Below, one piece after another: positions 2,468-15,534 of a stretch of DNA of 24,809 bases. The stretch comes from a virus. Location: positions 1 to 24,809 of the IMG/VR virus record IMGVR_UViG_3300007538_005839; one strand, 5' to 3'. The notes under the pieces were generated by a model. The model did not search any database, had not been told where the DNA came from, and saw only the letters and a program-made list of their open reading frames with translations. Position 1 is the stretch's first letter. Each line of letters starts with the position of its first letter. The position numbers were made by a program, and so were the translations under genes.

Positions 2468-4030
2468 TTAATTGATTCTATCATCAACACTGAACACGTA
2501 CCTTCCATCAACAATTTCGGCGTTGTTTTTGAACACAACTGTACCATCTTTATCATTATGAAATACTAAATAATCTGTTTTGTATGGTTTAACATTACCA
2601 CTACCAAATACAGTTACTTTGCCATCTTCTTCTTTAATATCATTAAATGGTTTAATCTGCATTGTTTTTTTACCTTCAGGAGTTTCAACATATGCGTCAA
2701 TACCACCTAACATATCATCAACACCACCTAATTCTCCTACTTTAAAAACTTCTTGAGTTCCAAAAATATCTTTTAGGTTTACTACTGCATTTATTTCTCT
2801 CTTATCTCCAAATTTATTGGACCTATCTAATCCTGACATAATTGTTTGGAATGTACTTGATTCAGGATTAAAAATCCTATATCGTAATTCCGTCATGTAC
2901 CTAATCAATCTATCTGTTTCGGATAACTGTTGTTGTTCGTTTTGACCAATATAATTGATTGGATTTATACCAACTTTTTTTAAGTATTGGTTTATATCAT
3001 TAGTTAATGTACAAAATGCAGTGTAATTAGTGTTTAACTTATTAATTACAGAACGACCTGGTTGTTCATAGTCGTATATTCCTGACATTTGACCTGATGC
3101 ATATTCATTCTTTTCAAACCAATAATCGGCAAATACTTCTTTTAATATATCCATAATTGCAAACATAAATTTCTTTTTAACCTGTGGATTTCGGTTAAAT
3201 ATCATTCTATATGTGTTAACTTGTTTTGCATTACATCCTGCAGAAACACCCTCATTAATTACTTGTTGAATAAACTTTCCTTCTTTAACTTTGTCTTTTG
3301 TTCTACCTAAATAAAGTTTATTAACAAAAGGCCAGTTAATTACTTTCCAAAAATTCTCAACGTATTCGTCTCTTCGATTCCTGTATTTCAAGTAATATGC
3401 GTGCTCCCAAAGGTCTAAACCAAGTATAGGGTAACCGCCAAACTTTACTGTGTTCATCAACGGGTTGTCTTGATTGGATGTGGTCATAATCTTTAACTTA
3501 TCGTTGTTAGTTACCACTAACCAAACCCATCCAGAGCCAAATTTAGATTTAGCTTTCTTTTCAAATTCTTTTTTAAAATCCTCGTATGTACCAAATTCTT
3601 CTTTAATTTTTCTAAGTATAGGACCATATACACGAGTATTTTTTGGTGTTAACATCTTCCAAAACAGTGCGTGGTTAAATGCACCGCCAGCATTATCTTT
3701 AATACTATTATTAAATCTACTTATACCTTTTACAATTTGTTCTAAGTCCAAATCAGGACCTTTTCTTTTTTCAATTGCCTTATTTAACTTGTCTACATAC
3801 CCCTTGTAATGTTTATTGTAATGTACATACATTGTCTCTTTGTCGATGAATGTATCTAAGGCAGAATAGGAGTATGGTAATTTTTCAATACCAATTTTTT
3901 TCATTTCTAATAAAATTTCTTTGCGTGATTTTTCCGTTACAGATTCTTTAATCGTATTGTTATCTGCAACATTTTTGTTGATTTGTTCTTCGAGTTCTTT
4001 AACTCTTTGTTTTAGTTTTTTGAAACCCAT
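2468..4030 (-). CDS. Mn-type superoxide dismutase fused to PD-(D/E)XK-like domain
   Basis: 520 residues in three parts. (1) 1-45: charged, coiled-coil-like leader. (2) About 46-240: complete iron/manganese superoxide dismutase domain, which converts superoxide to peroxide and oxygen. All four metal ligands are recognisable: His70 (YVHYNKHYKGY), His120 (FNHALFWKML), Asp206 and His210 (PILGLDLWEHAYYLKY). DNAGG (112-116) and Gln187 (NQDNPL) are the Mn-type choices at positions that separate Mn from Fe enzymes. (3) About 241-520: extra C-terminal region, helical first, then GGIDAYV (Asp445), TMQIK (Gln458, Lys460) and an upstream Glu412, the D...(E/Q)xK layout of PD-(D/E)XK nucleases. Standalone Fe/Mn SODs are about 200 residues, so the fusion more than doubles the length. 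It lies between helicase and neck genes with its own octamer at 4044-4051, which suggests late expression. SOD identity is near certain; the nuclease-like call is moderate. Confidence 0.9.
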   Translation of the reverse strand: MGFKKLKQRVKELEEQINKNVADNNTIKESVTEKSRKEILLEMKKIGIEKLPYSYSALDTFIDKETMYVHYNKHYKGYVDKLNKAIEKRKGPDLDLEQIVKGISRFNNSIKDNAGGAFNHALFWKMLTPKNTRVYGPILRKIKEEFGTYEDFKKEFEKKAKSKFGSGWVWLVVTNNDKLKIMTTSNQDNPLMNTVKFGGYPILGLDLWEHAYYLKYRNRRDEYVENFWKVINWPFVNKLYLGRTKDKVKEGKFIQQVINEGVSAGCNAKQVNTYRMIFNRNPQVKKKFMFAIMDILKEVFADYWFEKNEYASGQMSGIYDYEQPGRSVINKLNTNYTAFCTLTNDINQYLKKVGINPINYIGQNEQQQLSETDRLIRYMTELRYRIFNPESSTFQTIMSGLDRSNKFGDKREINAVVNLKDIFGTQEVFKVGELGGVDDMLGGIDAYVETPEGKKTMQIKPFNDIKEEDGKVTVFGSGNVKPYKTDYLVFHNDKDGTVVFKNNAEIVDGRYVFSVDDRIN

Positions 4031-4070: not shown

Positions 4071-5837
4071 TTATTTTCTTCTTTGTGAAATCTCATTTAA
4101 TATTTCTTCTAGAGTATCACCTTTACCTTCGTTGTCACCCATTACAGTTTCAAAAATATTCTTCTTCTTTGATAGGATATCATAGATAACACCTTCGATT
4201 GTGTTTTCAAATATTGGGTAGAATATAGATACGTTTGATTTTTGTCCATATCTATAGGCTCGGTCTTCTGCTTGTGCGTGGTCAGAAGGTACAAATGATA
4301 AGTCGTTCATAATGGCAGCTTCTGCAGATGTTAAGGTGATACCAACACCCGCAGCTTTTAAGTTACCAACGAACACTTTTATTTTATCGTTCTCTTGGAA
4401 TTGGTCAACCGAATGTTGACGGGCAGGTTTAGACATACTACCATCTAAAGTTACTGCGGCTTTCCCAAAATGTTCTTTTATCATATTCAGTGTGTTTGTA
4501 AAGTTTGTGAATATGATAACTTTTTTACCTTGTTCAATTATGTTTTCTGCAAGTTCACAAGTTTCTTTTACCTTATTTTCGGCAATTACTTGTCTAACTT
4601 TCATTAACTTTGAAAATTGAACGGTCAATGATGATGATTCATCTGATTGTTCATACCAGTCATAATATTCACCCATTAGTTGTTCATAATCGCGAGATTT
4701 TAATCTCAAATAAACAGGTGTAATAATTTTGTCAGGTAAATCTAATATGTCTTCTTTTAATCTTCTAAGTACATGAGTTTTGGTACGGTCTCTTAGTTCT
4801 TCAAGATTGTCAGCCCCTTGAACGTTCCATACTTTTCGTTTACCAACAGTGAACTGATATCCATTACAATATCTTTTTACATATGCCATCCAATTGTAAG
4901 CGACGGGACTATCAACAAGATTAAGAAGGTTGTAGTAGTTCATCGGTCTTGATGTCATCGGAGTACCTGTTAGTAACCATACCCGACCAATTTTCTTACA
5001 AACATCATTAACAATCTTTGTTCTTTGTGCTTGTGCGTTTTGAATGTAGTGAGCTTCATCGACAACAACCAAATCAAAACCTTCATTTAAAATTTTTGAT
5101 TCGTCAGGTAGTTTTGAATCGTGAAAGTTTTTAAGGATATCATAGTTGATAATCATATAGTCGGCACTTTCCCAATTTTTACCTTCGATGATTGAAATTG
5201 TTTTATCTGTGTAATTTTGTATTTCCCTCATCCAGTTAATCTTAAGTGATGCGGGACAAATAATTAAAACTTTTTCGGATTTTGATTCTAATGTACCTAT
5301 AACGGTTGATGTTGTTTTACCCAAACCCATGTCATCTGCAAGGATGTATTTGTCATTAGCCACCAACTTTTCAATTGCTTCTTTTTGGTGTTCCAACGGA
5401 GGTCGATTAGAATACTTTGAATAATCTATTTCAACTTTATTTTCTTTCTTTCCTATAATTGCGGCTTTTGGTAACCAAAAATCATAAAATTCTTCGGATT
5501 CAAATAGTCGACCCCAAATATGAAATGCTTTATCTTTTTCAACTAAAAGTTTTTCAATATAAATCTTTTCAGGTTCTTTTGTTAATAGTTTGTCTTCCAT
5601 CATTCTTTTTGAAAAATAAGAATCCAATGGAACCCATCTTCTTGCTAGTTTTGGAACAACATCTTTATAGTTGTTTATGTAGTCAGCTTGTGCTCTTGTA
5701 ATCTTGAAATTTTTGGAATTTTCTTTCTTCTTTTTTATTGCAAGAATATAGTTATTAAAACCTTCGTATTCTTCAAGAACACGCATGGCTTTAATTTCAG
5801 GTATGTTAGAAATTGTATTGTTGTTTTCTTGCATCAT
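4071..5837 (-). CDS. SNF2-family DNA helicase/translocase
   Basis: 588 residues from the chosen start. Superfamily 2 motifs are clear (numbered from this start): Walker A DDMGLGKT (168-175), DEAH box (260-263), motif III LTGTP (289-293), motif V region GVGITLTSAEAA, and motif VI QAEDRAYRYGQ with its arginines (526-532). The D-D-M-G-L-G-K-T and A-x-R-x-x-R-x-G-Q versions are typical of SNF2 proteins, nearest in style to the SMARCAL1-like branch, which remodels or anneals DNA rather than unwinding it processively. The ~140 residues before the core match nothing I recognise. In T4, UvsW (587 aa) is the SF2 enzyme for fork regression and recombination; this protein may fill that role. Start: an upstream in-frame TTG at 5861 would add eight residues, but two consecutive ATGs (5837, 5834) are more likely. 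It is divergent from the gp14-like gene. Confidence 0.88.
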   Translation of the reverse strand: MMQENNNTISNIPEIKAMRVLEEYEGFNNYILAIKKKKENSKNFKITRAQADYINNYKDVVPKLARRWVPLDSYFSKRMMEDKLLTKEPEKIYIEKLLVEKDKAFHIWGRLFESEEFYDFWLPKAAIIGKKENKVEIDYSKYSNRPPLEHQKEAIEKLVANDKYILADDMGLGKTTSTVIGTLESKSEKVLIICPASLKINWMREIQNYTDKTISIIEGKNWESADYMIINYDILKNFHDSKLPDESKILNEGFDLVVVDEAHYIQNAQAQRTKIVNDVCKKIGRVWLLTGTPMTSRPMNYYNLLNLVDSPVAYNWMAYVKRYCNGYQFTVGKRKVWNVQGADNLEELRDRTKTHVLRRLKEDILDLPDKIITPVYLRLKSRDYEQLMGEYYDWYEQSDESSSLTVQFSKLMKVRQVIAENKVKETCELAENIIEQGKKVIIFTNFTNTLNMIKEHFGKAAVTLDGSMSKPARQHSVDQFQENDKIKVFVGNLKAAGVGITLTSAEAAIMNDLSFVPSDHAQAEDRAYRYGQKSNVSIFYPIFENTIEGVIYDILSKKKNIFETVMGDNEGKGDTLEEILNEISQRRK

Positions 5838-5869
5838 AGAAATAAATTTAAATATAATCAAAAATCAAA

Positions 5870-12072: not shown

Positions 12073-12561
12073 ATGGCTGATTTATTAATGAAAATGCCCA
12101 CACCGTATGAACCAAAAAGAAAGAATCGATTCATTCTTACTTTTCCTTCATCTTTGGGTATCAACTCTTGGTACGTAGAATCAACTTCACGTCCACAGGT
12201 GACAATTGGAGCAACAGAGATTCCATTTTTGAACACATCAACATTCGTTGCAGGAAGATTTAACTGGAACACAATTAACGTAACATTCCGTGACCCAATC
12301 GGACCATCAGCGGCTCAAGCTCTTATGGAGTGGGTTCGCTTACACGCCGAATCAGTAACAGGTCGTATGGGTTATGCTGCGGGATATAAAAAAGACCTTG
12401 ATTTAGAGATGTTGGACCCAACAGGTGTTGCGGTTGAAAAATGGATTTTACAAGGAACATTCTTAACAGATGTTAACTTTGATTCATTAGGTTATAGTGA
12501 TGAAGGATTGGCAACAATTACCGCTACTCTTCGTCCTGATAGATGTATTTTGGTTTACTAA
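12073..12561 (+). CDS. Tail tube protein (gp19-like)
   Basis: 162 residues, practically the length of T4 gp19 (163). The opening MPTPYEPKRKNRFILTF, the SWYVESTSRPQV strand, and the finishing ATITATLRPDRCILVY are typical of the T4-type inner tube protein, whose hexameric rings stack to form the DNA conduit inside the sheath. WNTINVTFRDPIGPSA followed by an ALMEWVRLHAES helix matches the conserved centre. It is expressed as a unit of its own between the octamer at 12022 and the terminator at 12598-12630, consistent with the very high copy number needed. Confidence 0.93.
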   Translation: MADLLMKMPTPYEPKRKNRFILTFPSSLGINSWYVESTSRPQVTIGATEIPFLNTSTFVAGRFNWNTINVTFRDPIGPSAAQALMEWVRLHAESVTGRMGYAAGYKKDLDLEMLDPTGVAVEKWILQGTFLTDVNFDSLGYSDEGLATITATLRPDRCILVY

Positions 12562-12638: not shown

Positions 12639-13394
12639 ATGGATACATCTACACAATATGGACAAATGGACATGAACTTACCACACGATGTGGTAAACTT
12701 ACCTTCGGGTGGTAAATTTTATAAAAACAAAAAAAGTTCACTTAAGGTTGGATATTTGACGGCAAATGACGAAAACATTCTTATGTCACCTAATATTATC
12801 CAATCAGAGGGTGTTATTAGAACTTTATTAAAACAAAAAATTTATGAACCAAATTTTAATGTAGATGAATTATTGGACGGAGATGTTCAAGCTATTTTAA
12901 TGTTTTTAAGAAACACCGCATTTGGTACGTCATATAATATTAAAGCAATTGACCCAGTTACTAATAAAGAATTTGAAACAAAAATTGAGTTAGATGAAAT
13001 CAATTTTTTAAAACCAGAAATTGAACCAAATGAAAGGGGACTTTTTCAATTTACATTACCGTCAAGTGGTAAAGTAGTGGAGTGTAAGTTATTGAATATT
13101 GGTGAACAAGAGGAAATTACAAAATTAACCTCACAATACCCTAAGGGTATGATTGCACCTATTACAACAAAGACATTAGAAAAACAAATTGTTACCTTAA
13201 ATGGTGACGATAATAAACAAAATATATCAGTGTTTATTTCACAAATGCCAATTGCGGATTCCAAATATATTAGAAAAGAACTTTCAAAATGTGAACCAAG
13301 ATTAGATTTGAATAAACAAATTACCGCCCCGTCAGGAGAAAAAGTGAATGTTGTTGTCACTTTCGGGGCGGAGTTTTTTCGACCTTTCTTCTGA
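12639..13394 (+). CDS. Baseplate hub subunit, gp26-like
   Basis: 251 residues. The opening MNLPHDVVNLPSGGKFY, followed by SLKVGYLTANDENILMS, ELLDGDVQAILMFLRNTAFGTSYNI and later KIELDEINFL, is the pattern of the T4-like gp26 family: LPSGG-x-F/Y near the N-terminus, a helix with L-L-x-G-D and an LR-x-x-x-x-G-x-x-Y segment. T4 gp26 (208 aa) takes part in hub assembly around the tape measure. It lies right after the tube terminator, and its last 47 bases overlap the next ORF in the +1 frame; the region carries a strong hairpin (13324-13371) followed by six T. A TATTTAAA element (12626-12633) ends five bases before the ATG but is a poor match to the octamer. A short-tail form ending EFFRPFF is produced if no frameshift occurs. 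Confidence 0.7.
   Translation: MDTSTQYGQMDMNLPHDVVNLPSGGKFYKNKKSSLKVGYLTANDENILMSPNIIQSEGVIRTLLKQKIYEPNFNVDELLDGDVQAILMFLRNTAFGTSYNIKAIDPVTNKEFETKIELDEINFLKPEIEPNERGLFQFTLPSSGKVVECKLLNIGEQEEITKLTSQYPKGMIAPITTKTLEKQIVTLNGDDNKQNISVFISQMPIADSKYIRKELSKCEPRLDLNKQITAPSGEKVNVVVTFGAEFFRPFF
13324..13371 (+). promoter_or_regulatory. Composite RNA hairpin over gp26/next-ORF overlap
   Basis: Outer stem CCGCCCCG (13324-13331) with CGGGGCGG (13364-13371), eight perfect pairs; inner stem AAAGTGA (13341-13347) with TCACTTT (13357-13363), seven perfect pairs; loop ATGTTGTTG. The single-stranded left bulge (13332-13340) carries AGGAG (13334-13338), and the loop starts with the ATG (13348) of the next ORF. Six T follow at 13374-13379. 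It could control internal initiation, stimulate frameshifting at TTT-TTT-C, or act as an attenuator. Confidence 0.6.
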
Positions 13395-13560
13395 TTATAA
13401 AAAATTACAACTAGACGAAATTTATTATTTGTGTAAGCATGCGAATTTTTCTTATTCGGATATATTAATTATGCCCGTATTTGAGAGAAAATATTTTATC
13501 AATAAGATTGTTGAAGATTTTGAAGCCAAACAAGAGATGTACGAAAAAAACAAAAAATAA
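13348..13560 (+). CDS. Small tail-assembly-chaperone-like protein (gp51 position)
   Basis: 70 residues if started at ATG 13348, which has AGGAG nine bases upstream, one of the best Shine-Dalgarno sequences in the window. The frame is +1 to the gp26-like gene and opens directly after an in-frame TGA (13345-13347). The C-terminal half (YYLCKHANFSYSDILIMPVF, then ERKYFINKIVEDFEA) has the M-P-V/I-x-E-R-x-x-F/Y-I ending common to tail hub assembly and tail chaperone proteins. Gene order gp26-like / this / tape measure parallels gp26-gp51-gp29 in T4 and G-GT-tape in siphophages. It might also be made as a fusion by +1 shifting at GAG-TTT-TTT-CGA (13371-13382), which would give ...AEFF followed by DLSSDYKK. 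T4 gp51 is far longer, so the link is by position and motif only. Confidence 0.65.
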   Translation: MLLSLSGRSFFDLSSDYKKLQLDEIYYLCKHANFSYSDILIMPVFERKYFINKIVEDFEAKQEMYEKNKK

Positions 13561-13562
13561 TC

Positions 13563-13570
13563 TATTTATA
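13563..13570 (+). promoter_or_regulatory. Candidate late promoter octamer before tape measure
   Basis: TATTTATA followed by CATAAAG, 14 bases before ATG 13585, in the 24-base gap after the chaperone-like ORF. Confidence 0.4.
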
Positions 13571-13584
13571 CATAAAGAATAGAT

Positions 13585-15534
13585 ATGTTTTTCCAAAACG
13601 AAGAAGCTGCTAGTTCACAAGGATTATTTGGTCAAGGAGGTGCAGATACCCAAGGTAGGTTTATTACAGACGCTTCTGTGGCATTTAAAAATGCGTTTAA
13701 TTTTGAAAAAGTACAAGAATCCTTTTTATCTATTGAAAATAGTGCTAAAGAAATGTCAAGAACGGTCTTTGGTACCACAGGAAAATATGCATCTTCTATT
13801 CAAAAAACTTTATTAGAATCTTACAAATCTACACTTGATATTGGTGGAACATTAAAAGACCAAGCGGATACATATAAGGCAATCTCATCAGCATTACAAA
13901 GACAAGTTTATTTACAAGATGAACAATTGGCTGCTGCTGTTAGATTACAAAAAACAACAGGTATTTCTGCTGAAGAGTTAGGGACATTAGTCGTTGGATA
14001 TCAAGATTTAGGTCAAAGTACAGGTAAAGCTTTAGAAAGTGTTGATGGTTTAGCTGCAAGTGCAAGAGGTTATGGTCTTAATGTTAATACTTTTCTTAAA
14101 AAGGTTGGTGAAAATATTAAGTTAGTCAATTCTTATGGATTTAAGGATGGTGTTGAAGGGTTGGGTAGAATGGTTGCCAGAGCTCAAGCTCTTCGTATGG
14201 ATTTCACCAAAGTTGTATCATTGGCTGCGGATTTACTTAATCCTGAGAAAGCGATAGAGTTAGCTGCGAGTTTTCAAACATTAGGTGGTGAAATTGGTGC
14301 ATTAGGTGACCCATTCAAATTGATGTACATGGCTGAGAATGACATGGAAGGTCTTCAAAATGCTATTGTTGATACTGCTAAATCTGCGGTAATGTTCAAC
14401 AAAGAAACCGGTGAATTTAAAATTACGGGTGTGGAAATGAGAAGGTTACGTGAACAAGCTCAAGCTTTAAATATGAGTTATGAAGACCTTGCAAATACTG
14501 CGGTTAAAGCTGCTAAAGAACAAGAGGTGATGTCACGTCTTGAGTTTACCGGATTAAATGAAAAACAAAAACAATTGGTTGCCAATTTAGCTGAGATAAA
14601 TAAAAACGGTGAGGTTGAATTAACATTCCCTGGATTAGATGGAGCTACAAAAACAATTACCGATTTTACAAATATATCTGCCGAAGACCAAAAAGCCATT
14701 GAACAATTCCAAAAAGATAATGCAAAAAGTGCAGAACAAATACAAACTGAACAATTAAGTTTGGCACGACAAAGAACTATTGCGTTAGAGAAAATATCAA
14801 CAAGAGGGTTAATTTCATCAGGTATAGTAGACCCAACACAAAAACTAAATAAAGATTTAACTGAACTAACAAAAGCTACCGTTGAAGGAACAACTAAAGG
14901 ATTTGTTGATAATATGTCAAGTTTCTTTAGTGAAGGTAACTTTAATAAAGTTTTTGGTTCATTTATTTCCGGTAGTGACCAATTTATTACAGATGCTGCT
15001 AATTTAGTTGGTACAACAACACAAATGTTACAGGATATTGCAGTTCAAATACCCAATAATATGAACACATTAATGTCAAGTACAAACCAATTTAATAGTG
15101 CTGTGGGAAGTATGACTAACACCGTAAACGCTATTAATACTTCGTTAGAAACTTTTTTTAGAGATTTTGGTGGTAGAGGTGGAGGTAACGGTGGTGGAGA
15201 AAATCCCGATATGGGTGATGATATTGTATCTACTGGTGGATATGGTAATCGTACCTTAAAGATGCCTAAAGGTAGTATCCAACTTAATGACTTAGATACT
15301 ATAGTTGCAGGAACTAATTTATTTGATAATAATAGTAGTAGTAGTACTTCAAAATCTGAACAAAATATAAGTTTTAGTAAACCTTTAGAAATAAGAATAG
15401 ATATTTCAGGTGTTAATAATAGAGAATTTGAAACAATGATGAAGAGTCCTGAATTTACTGCTGCTGTTAGAAAACAAATTATGGCGGGTATAGGTGCACC
15501 TTTAGGTAATACAACTGCAGGATATCTTGCTTAA
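13585..15534 (+). CDS. Tape measure protein (gp29-like)
   Basis: 649 residues, mostly long alpha-helices rich in Ala, Gln, Lys and Thr with repeated heptad-like stretches, as expected for the rod that sets tail length inside the tube; T4 gp29 is 590. A Gly-rich linker (about 527-540, GGRGGGNGGG) separates the helical rod from a small C-terminal module (MPKGSIQLNDLDTIVAGTNL, then a SFSKPLEIRIDISGV strand) that probably binds the hub. A segment near 215-245 (NPEKAIELAASFQTLGGEIG) resembles the hydrophobic stretches tape measures use at the host membrane, although no clear transmembrane helix is seen. It directly follows the gp26-like and chaperone-like genes. Identity is by composition, size and position rather than a single motif. 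Confidence 0.75.
   Translation: MFFQNEEAASSQGLFGQGGADTQGRFITDASVAFKNAFNFEKVQESFLSIENSAKEMSRTVFGTTGKYASSIQKTLLESYKSTLDIGGTLKDQADTYKAISSALQRQVYLQDEQLAAAVRLQKTTGISAEELGTLVVGYQDLGQSTGKALESVDGLAASARGYGLNVNTFLKKVGENIKLVNSYGFKDGVEGLGRMVARAQALRMDFTKVVSLAADLLNPEKAIELAASFQTLGGEIGALGDPFKLMYMAENDMEGLQNAIVDTAKSAVMFNKETGEFKITGVEMRRLREQAQALNMSYEDLANTAVKAAKEQEVMSRLEFTGLNEKQKQLVANLAEINKNGEVELTFPGLDGATKTITDFTNISAEDQKAIEQFQKDNAKSAEQIQTEQLSLARQRTIALEKISTRGLISSGIVDPTQKLNKDLTELTKATVEGTTKGFVDNMSSFFSEGNFNKVFGSFISGSDQFITDAANLVGTTTQMLQDIAVQIPNNMNTLMSSTNQFNSAVGSMTNTVNAINTSLETFFRDFGGRGGGNGGGENPDMGDDIVSTGGYGNRTLKMPKGSIQLNDLDTIVAGTNLFDNNSSSSTSKSEQNISFSKPLEIRIDISGVNNREFETMMKSPEFTAAVRKQIMAGIGAPLGNTTAGYLA

Follow-up and report, generated by a model that had tools for sequence, protein, structure and literature searches.

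A conserved hairpin ahead of a UUU_CGN slip site points to +1 frameshifting in the gp26-like tail chaperone gene of uncultivated T4-like phages

Introduction

Tail assembly chaperones of the G/GT type, as known from phage lambda, are encoded between the tail tube and the tape measure and occur as a short form and a minor long form, whose T domain is derived from another frame. Excerpts of PMC5009743 locate the slippery sequence where the first open reading frame (ORF) ends, describe the G-T frameshift as conserved in long-tailed phages 'except T4', and regard the archaeal HSTV-2 as very likely +1. The present study concerns a gp26-like gene and a composite hairpin near its 3' end in a viral DNA stretch of 24,809 nt (IMG/VR virus record IMGVR_UViG_3300007538_005839, positions 1 to 24,809, one strand, 5' to 3'), hereafter called the window. 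The gene resembles lambda G/GT in its slippery site and, if the candidate tape measure gene is one, in its place, whereas lambda shifts by -1 and gp26 here would shift by +1 with a hairpin 5' of the site. We give a probability of roughly 0.8 to the reading that this hairpin-bearing slip site yields gp26 as the short form and, by +1 programmed ribosomal frameshifting, a long chaperone of 306 residues in a G/GT arrangement, with the hairpin as stimulator. The sequence comparison argues strongly for the shift itself and less strongly for its stimulation by the hairpin.

T4 carries gp26 and gp51 as separate genes, whereas here one gene would be extended by a frame-shifted T domain; both share the membership of gp26 in PF12322, and the T domain weakly matches PHROG_634, whose name is also borne by T4 gp51. 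For T4-like phages a mechanism without frameshifting has reportedly been proposed by Vladimirov et al. in 2022, to judge from a title in reference lists. Poly-T signals for -1 shifts are known in TAC-N genes of T4-like phages, according to the accessible part of PMC12846349.

Further likenesses concern the slip and its stimulator. A P-site UUU that re-pairs to UUC before CGN, with all four CGN codons in use, is described for influenza A PA-X and plant amalgaviruses in the accessible part of PMC5052127; these are eukaryotic RNA viruses, whereas the present site lies in a phage gene and has a 5' hairpin, and for PA-X no stimulatory signal is evident (PMC5009743, in excerpt). In RF2 (prfB) a +1 slip of the P-site tRNA is likewise combined with a duplex close to the E site, and CUU_U variants in a sister group of our gene share its P-site codon. 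There, a Shine-Dalgarno (SD)-anti-SD duplex 3 nt from the site acts together with UGA (PMC5009743, in excerpt), whereas an mRNA hairpin and sense codons occur here. The bypass in T4 gene 60 resembles our model in a hairpin behind the ribosome, two-stage closing and a proposed mRNA-pulling motor (same excerpts), but skips 50 nt instead of one base. As to experiments, parts of two papers report that a 6-bp GC hairpin upstream of CUU_CGG_C stimulated +1 shifting in yeast (PMC3639245, Cho 2013) and that in an E. coli 70S system an upstream hairpin had about 60% of the SD effect on +1 shifting (PMC6321510, Huang 2018). Lying next to the E site, such hairpins imitate the duplex of an internal SD. 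These reporter hairpins were designed or transplanted, whereas the present one is natural, and no natural +1 case was met in the portions of PMC3639245 and PMC6321510 consulted.

Tail chaperone frameshifts, the mention of +1 in HSTV-2 and UUU_CGN in influenza and amalgaviruses are thus known already from the literature excerpts named above. Our literature search returned no +1 site in the T4-type gp26 family, no UUU_CGN site in a phage and no natural conserved 5' hairpin as +1 stimulator, part of which the work of Vladimirov (2022) may hold; the last of these is what we propose here.

Materials and Methods

Relatives fetched with gp26 comprised 25 loci, plus the best 80 of 459. The 104 loci holding the gene end, window included, gave 83 distinct 90-nt regions, identical regions being counted once, and counts out of 83 refer to this set; L024 and L025 (partial gp26) and loci mostly refetched from contigs already in the set were left out. 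Scanning with a degenerate DNA pattern for the element yielded at least 120 viral stretches and 78 new loci (L141-L218), 77 of which were parsed. As the pattern includes the outer stem, these loci were not used for stem statistics. The sister group consists of 80 loci, the best 80 of at least 600, obtained with gp26 of Microcystis phage Mel-JY01, Flavobacterium phage immuto and an uncultured phage as queries. A search of genome_contigs returned no relative.

Results and Discussion

Slip site and second domain

The features on which the frameshift reading depends are the following:

12639..13394, + strand: gp26-like gene, PF12322 (T4_baseplate), frame 0, 251 aa, short tail assembly chaperone (Pfam and PHROG)
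13374..13382, + strand: slip site UUU_UUU_CGA, P-site UUU at 13377-13379, A-site CGA at 13380-13382, C13380 skipped in the +1 model (UUU_CGN in 83/83)
13381..13557, + strand: T domain, +1 frame, 59 codons, stop at 13558-13560, three helices (comparison of relatives, AlphaFold2, DUF6760)
12639..13560, + strand: predicted frameshift product, 306 aa, gp26 residues 1-247 plus 59 T residues, CGAC read as one step

UUU_CGN stands in the gp26 frame in all 83 distinct sequences, as UUU_UUU_CGN in 81 and as UUC_UUU_CGN in two. After UUU_UUU the codon is CGG in 38, CGU in 20, CGC in 13 and CGA in 10 sequences, after UUC_UUU it is CGG in both, and the gp26 stop (13392-13394 in the window) comes four to six codons downstream of the UUU slip codon, CGN counted. 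Earlier in the same genes, CGN accounts for 91 of 722 Arg codons and CGG for one. In the model, a slip of tRNA-Phe from UUU to UUC needs a following C, which the Arg codons AGA and AGG would not supply. The base after CG also determines with which residue the T domain begins (GNC: Gly, Val, Ala or Asp), so that selection on the +1 frame, and not on rarity, may account for the rare CGG. The T6 at 13374-13379, which a first-pass annotation of the window had taken as a possible sign of attenuation, is the beginning of this +1 slip site, overlooked at that time.

Immediately 3' of two Phe codons (FF), the +1 frame of the relatives encodes a domain of about 45-60 residues, which also lies in +1, after a 0-frame open upstream, in 77/77 parsed pattern-scan loci. 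AlphaFold2 predicts a confident three-helix fold for it (46-row alignment, pLDDT 92.3). DUF6760 of Pfam matches 12 of the 46 T-domain members (best E 1.6e-5), and PHROG_634, 'baseplate hub assembly catalyst', weakly matches three (best E 0.0024); Foldseek against BFVD and PDB gave no match at E <= 0.001, the weak viral ones including Gp51 of P-HM1 and tail chaperones. Deposited genomes split or shorten the T domain, as a coding sequence of 36 aa (111 nt) in L028 and of 39 aa (120 nt) in L036, or carry none (L030, L039). Such annotation as a short downstream ORF, or its absence, is expected if the domain has no start codon of its own.

The 0-frame product itself is a member of PF12322 (Pfam profile search, E 1.5e-10, 41.5 bits, above the curated cut-off of 24.5) and matches PHROG_150 (E 3.3e-13). 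Of the 1000 PDB entries that Foldseek ranked highest, the one closest to its AlphaFold2 model (pLDDT 84.5) is 2ob9, the tail assembly chaperone of HK97 (Z 5.6, rmsd 4.4, 90 aligned; next 3.8), which is support and not proof, as a Z below 8 may reflect a common arrangement. Two features of G/GT systems are thus found, namely an overlapping second domain in another frame kept across relatives and a slippery site conserved in 83/83. The usual direction of -1 is not, the T frame being +1, but direction does not define the class, given the +1 precedent of HSTV-2.

The composite hairpin and its conservation

Directly upstream of the slip site lies a hairpin with these parts:

13324..13331, + strand: outer GC stem, 5' arm CCGCCCCG, conserved core GCCCCG at 13326-13331 (read from sequence, fold, pair counts)
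13332..13340, + strand: bulge TCAGGAGAA, 9 nt, with AGGAG at 13334-13338 (read from sequence)
13341..13347, + strand: inner stem, 5' arm AAAGTGA, 7 bp (sequence, pair counts, inner-stem energy)
13348..13356, + strand: loop, opening with ATG at 13348-13350, a possible annotated start of the +1 ORF, not conserved (sequence)
13357..13363, + strand: inner stem, 3' arm TCACTTT (sequence, pair counts, inner-stem energy)
13364..13371, + strand: outer GC stem, 3' arm CGGGGCGG, 8 bp, with GGGG at 13365-13368, i.e. -12 to -9 from the P-site codon (sequence, pair counts)

The 8-bp stem around a 7-bp stem, with ATG opening the loop and AGGAG in the bulge, was recovered at the place given in the first-pass annotation, and it is the predicted minimum-energy fold in the window (-21.7 kcal/mol, z -2.34, equalled by 2/200 dinucleotide shuffles). 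This single-sequence statistic, taken alone, is modest; the comparison of 83 sequences gives strong evidence. The 51 nt 5' of the slip site have a mean of -16.1 kcal/mol versus -9.4 in synonymous-codon shuffles, with 66/83 sequences at p <= 0.05 and 72/83 with z below -1.5. For the inner 27 nt alone the values are -6.1 versus -2.1 in such shuffles, and 58/83 sequences reach p <= 0.05, whereas 20 windows of this gene taken as controls give 5-12%. An Rfam scan of window positions 13200-13600 gave a single match of 11.2 bits against a gathering score of 60 and hence no known Rfam element.

The first-pass annotation had suggested that relatives be compared for compensatory changes in both stems and for a loss of pairing where the proteins are kept. 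The pairing proved to be retained in 98.0% of outer-stem and 78.5% of inner-stem cells. In the gap-free alignment 86.8% of cells are paired versus 81.7% in shuffles and 39-60% in slid versions, and 69 cells are changed on both sides versus 34.5 in shuffles (0/500 as high), the shuffles of these pair counts ignoring relatedness and the reference structure being taken from one of the sequences. Against a background with identical phylogeny, the 152,301 column pairs of the same gene, the covariation of the inner-stem pairs ranks 32 (-33,-17), 148 (-34,-16), 185 (-31,-19) and, for the fourth pair, 877. Parsimony on the gp26 tree, in one midpoint-rooted reconstruction, counts 8, 10, 3 and 1 double compensatory changes at four pairs of the inner stem; the outer stem has two such changes, carried together by sequence L076 (GUCC/GGAC for CCCC/GGGG). 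The 23 codon columns of the element are under stronger synonymous constraint than the remainder of the gene (mean excess 0.154 versus 0.022). The outer stem appears in 79/83 predicted folds, with its last paired base 5 to 9 nt 5' of the P-site codon, close to the position from which the SD duplex of RF2 (3 nt spacing, PMC5009743 in excerpt) stimulates +1 shifting. RNAalifold recovered the outer stem and, across the U run, a hairpin of 3 bp, but not the inner stem, whose register varies among sequences. Because it is conserved with compensatory changes, the hairpin is, on this comparative evidence, an element that works as RNA.

Within the bulge, all 83 sequences keep GGA at 13335-13337 (-42 to -40 relative to the P-site codon), although glycine codons vary elsewhere in the gene (expected same-codon share 0.43). 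Neither pairing nor SD use explains it, and it may form a tertiary contact. By eye, Streptococcus phage SagM-GXN1 (L030, about 3640-3715) shows an apparent two-part hairpin, GTCC/GGAC plus GTGAT/ATCAC, which directly precedes TTC TTT CGT, with T in +1.

Other structures were considered as well. A hairpin formed by GGGG with CCUU, which would have the slip site as its loop, pairs in 91.6% of cells, but all 500 shuffles reach its covariation score, and it was rejected. Bulge AGGAGAAA could pair in the window with UUUCUUCU after the slip site; this pseudoknot was set aside for want of support, though not refuted. In 9/83 sequences AGGAG has A as its last base, while the opposing C is kept in the rows inspected, a comparison made without a formal count. 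For a downstream stimulator between +3 and +62 the mean z was -0.29 (mononucleotide shuffles only). An SD stimulator near the slip site is not kept either, the base before the U run being G in 46, A in 29 and C in 8 of 83. Since GGAG is not kept and these genes lack SD use, no SD of the RF2 type 3 nt before the P-site codon is found.

Sister group and named phages

The sister group has a UUU_UGG layout, with slip sites TTTTTTTGG (69 of 80 loci), TTTTTTTAC (4), TTTCTTTGG (3), TTTTTTTTC (2), CTTTTTTGG (1) and TTCTTCTGG (1); the predominant form is TTT TTT TGG, and the variants include CTT TGG, with a P-site slip equal to that of RF2. A T domain of 45 aa or more lies in +1 in 76/80 loci, and the contig end cuts three. 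Among the named phages, T was placed in +1 by eye in L027, L028, L029, L030, L033, L035, L036 and L039; it lies in -1 at a U run in L031, L032, L037 and L038 (by eye) and in L341 and L342. The cyanophages with T in -1 are P-SSM2 and S-PM2. To judge from these sequences, shifting looks common in the gp26 family, and its direction looks to have switched within the family.

The hosts are probably Bacteroidota, an assignment drawn solely from the SD-independence of the genes and from the Flavobacterium phages in the sister group.

Proposed mechanism

To judge from its conservation in a hundred or more relatives, the element very probably causes a fraction of the ribosomes to jump over a single base. 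Most ribosomes would end at the gp26 stop a few codons past the slip site and release the short chaperone. In others, a pause would leave tRNA-Phe paired to UUU in the P site while CGA occupies the A site; moving one base forward, this tRNA would re-pair with UUC, and reading in +1 would add the 59-residue T domain. The predicted junction peptide is EFFDLSS (...TFGAEFFDLSSDYK; ...FGAEFFDLSSDYK), whereas a -2 shift would give EFFFDLSS. The hairpin would be melted by the passing ribosome and could re-form in its wake, beginning with the inner stem, which would close outside the exit channel, and ending with the outer GC clamp, whose base would lie 5-9 nt from the P-site codon. Closure of the clamp would pull the mRNA 5'-ward and favour the +1 slip, and thereby stand in for the internal SD duplex of RF2. 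Such two-step closing, with the inner stem outside the channel and the GC clamp inside, would fit the composite shape, by analogy with the systems described above. We tip the balance narrowly in favour of this detailed version, in which uncultivated, SD-independent T4-like phages, probably of Bacteroidota hosts, would drive a UUU_CGN +1 shift by a natural, co-evolving hairpin that refolds in two stages behind the ribosome, the inner stem nucleating and the GC clamp pulling, in place of the SD-anti-SD spring of RF2.

Several observations weigh against the frameshift reading or against the part given to the hairpin. According to part of PMC6321510, the hairpin in the 70S system had its effect at a UGA site, and solely when RF2 was absent. 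Structure 5' of the slip site is weaker in the sister group, where about 25-43% of sequences reach p <= 0.05 in nearby 51-nt windows versus 5-12% in control windows, so that retention of the site does not demand a strong hairpin in every member; and one sister locus (L302) lacks T in +1. Profiles built from the gp26 and T alignments showed no significant similarity to single T4 gp26 and gp51 sequences. Some ATG, GTG or TTG stands in the T frame 5' of the slip site in 76/83 sequences, and some T product could in part arise by internal initiation. The hairpin could also act otherwise, by a pause, as an insulator or on mRNA stability.

Alternative explanations

The first-pass annotation had seen in the hairpin a translational switch at an internal start codon, governing separate initiation of the downstream protein. 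In favour of it, the loop in the window begins with ATG, 9 nt after the end of AGGAG, and the bulge keeps its GGA throughout. The loop ATG, however, is at the same place in 14/83 distinct sequences, so that no start codon is conserved in the hairpin, and only 31/83 have an ATG anywhere in the T frame 5' of the slip site. Between the last +1-frame stop and the slip site, 7/83 sequences have no ATG, GTG or TTG at all, and in five of these the +1 frame is open for three codons only, into which no start fits; start codons before the slip site are likewise missing in 4/39 further distinct sequences of the pattern scan and in 38/80 sister loci. SD-like 4-mers precede 4/284 ORFs versus 2.45 expected from shuffled upstream sequence, so that AGGAG is unlikely to work as a ribosome-binding site. 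UUU_CGN would also be left without explanation. We consider a start-codon switch, which the loci lacking any start already contradict, very unlikely; rather than being initiated separately, the two products would more likely share one start, the long form being the short one extended by frameshifting. Of the earlier proposal, the conserved RNA element stands, and with it a probable role in setting how much is made of each of two tail-assembly chaperones; control of a start codon does not.

A two-base backward slip on the U run would lead to the same final frame as +1, and tail chaperone frameshifts are mostly -1, as they would be in the cyanophage relatives with T in -1 at such a run. Yet UUC_UUU_CGG, present in two sequences, does not permit -2 re-pairing, and the invariant C after UUU is required by a +1 slip only. 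A -2 shift is in our view very improbable, and +1 is the direction preferred.

A GC stem followed by T6 could also be read as an attenuator or terminator-like hairpin restricting transcription into the tape measure gene, as the first-pass annotation had allowed. However, the structure lies inside gp26, the T run begins a few bases past the stem and is broken in 2/83 sequences, and neither the invariant CGN behind the run nor the +1-frame T domain is explained, which makes this reading very unlikely. Transcriptional slippage, for which most sequences have a T6 or T7 run that could produce the fused frame, is highly improbable, since the runs are short, the TTCTTT and TTTCTTTGG variants have none, and CGN is invariant.

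Significance and neighbouring genes

The view conveyed by a paper title and by quotations is that T4-like phages build two tail chaperones without frameshifting; the sequences compared here suggest that large groups of the gp26 family do shift, and in the rarer +1 direction. If the hairpin drives the shift, it offers a natural conserved example, with dozens of variants, for studying how mRNA refolding moves the ribosome. Annotation can be repaired as well, as public records split or shorten the T domain.

The genes on either side of gp26 are the following:

12073..12561, + strand: tail tube gene, upstream of gp26 (PHROG_4542, E 3.7e-27)
13585..15534, + strand: candidate tape measure gene, a downstream ORF of 649 aa, named by position, family searches of the window having given no convincing match

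A tape measure is annotated at the corresponding place in the relatives L028 and L039.

Two further genes were noticed elsewhere in the window. On the minus strand, 2468-4030 encodes a 520-aa phage protein with an Fe/Mn superoxide dismutase domain (Sod_Fe_C E 7e-40, Sod_Fe_N E 3e-21) and a long C-terminal part. At 4071-5861 (-) an SNF2-type helicase is encoded (E 8.9e-28), which we presume may be a UvsW-like helicase of T4-like phages.
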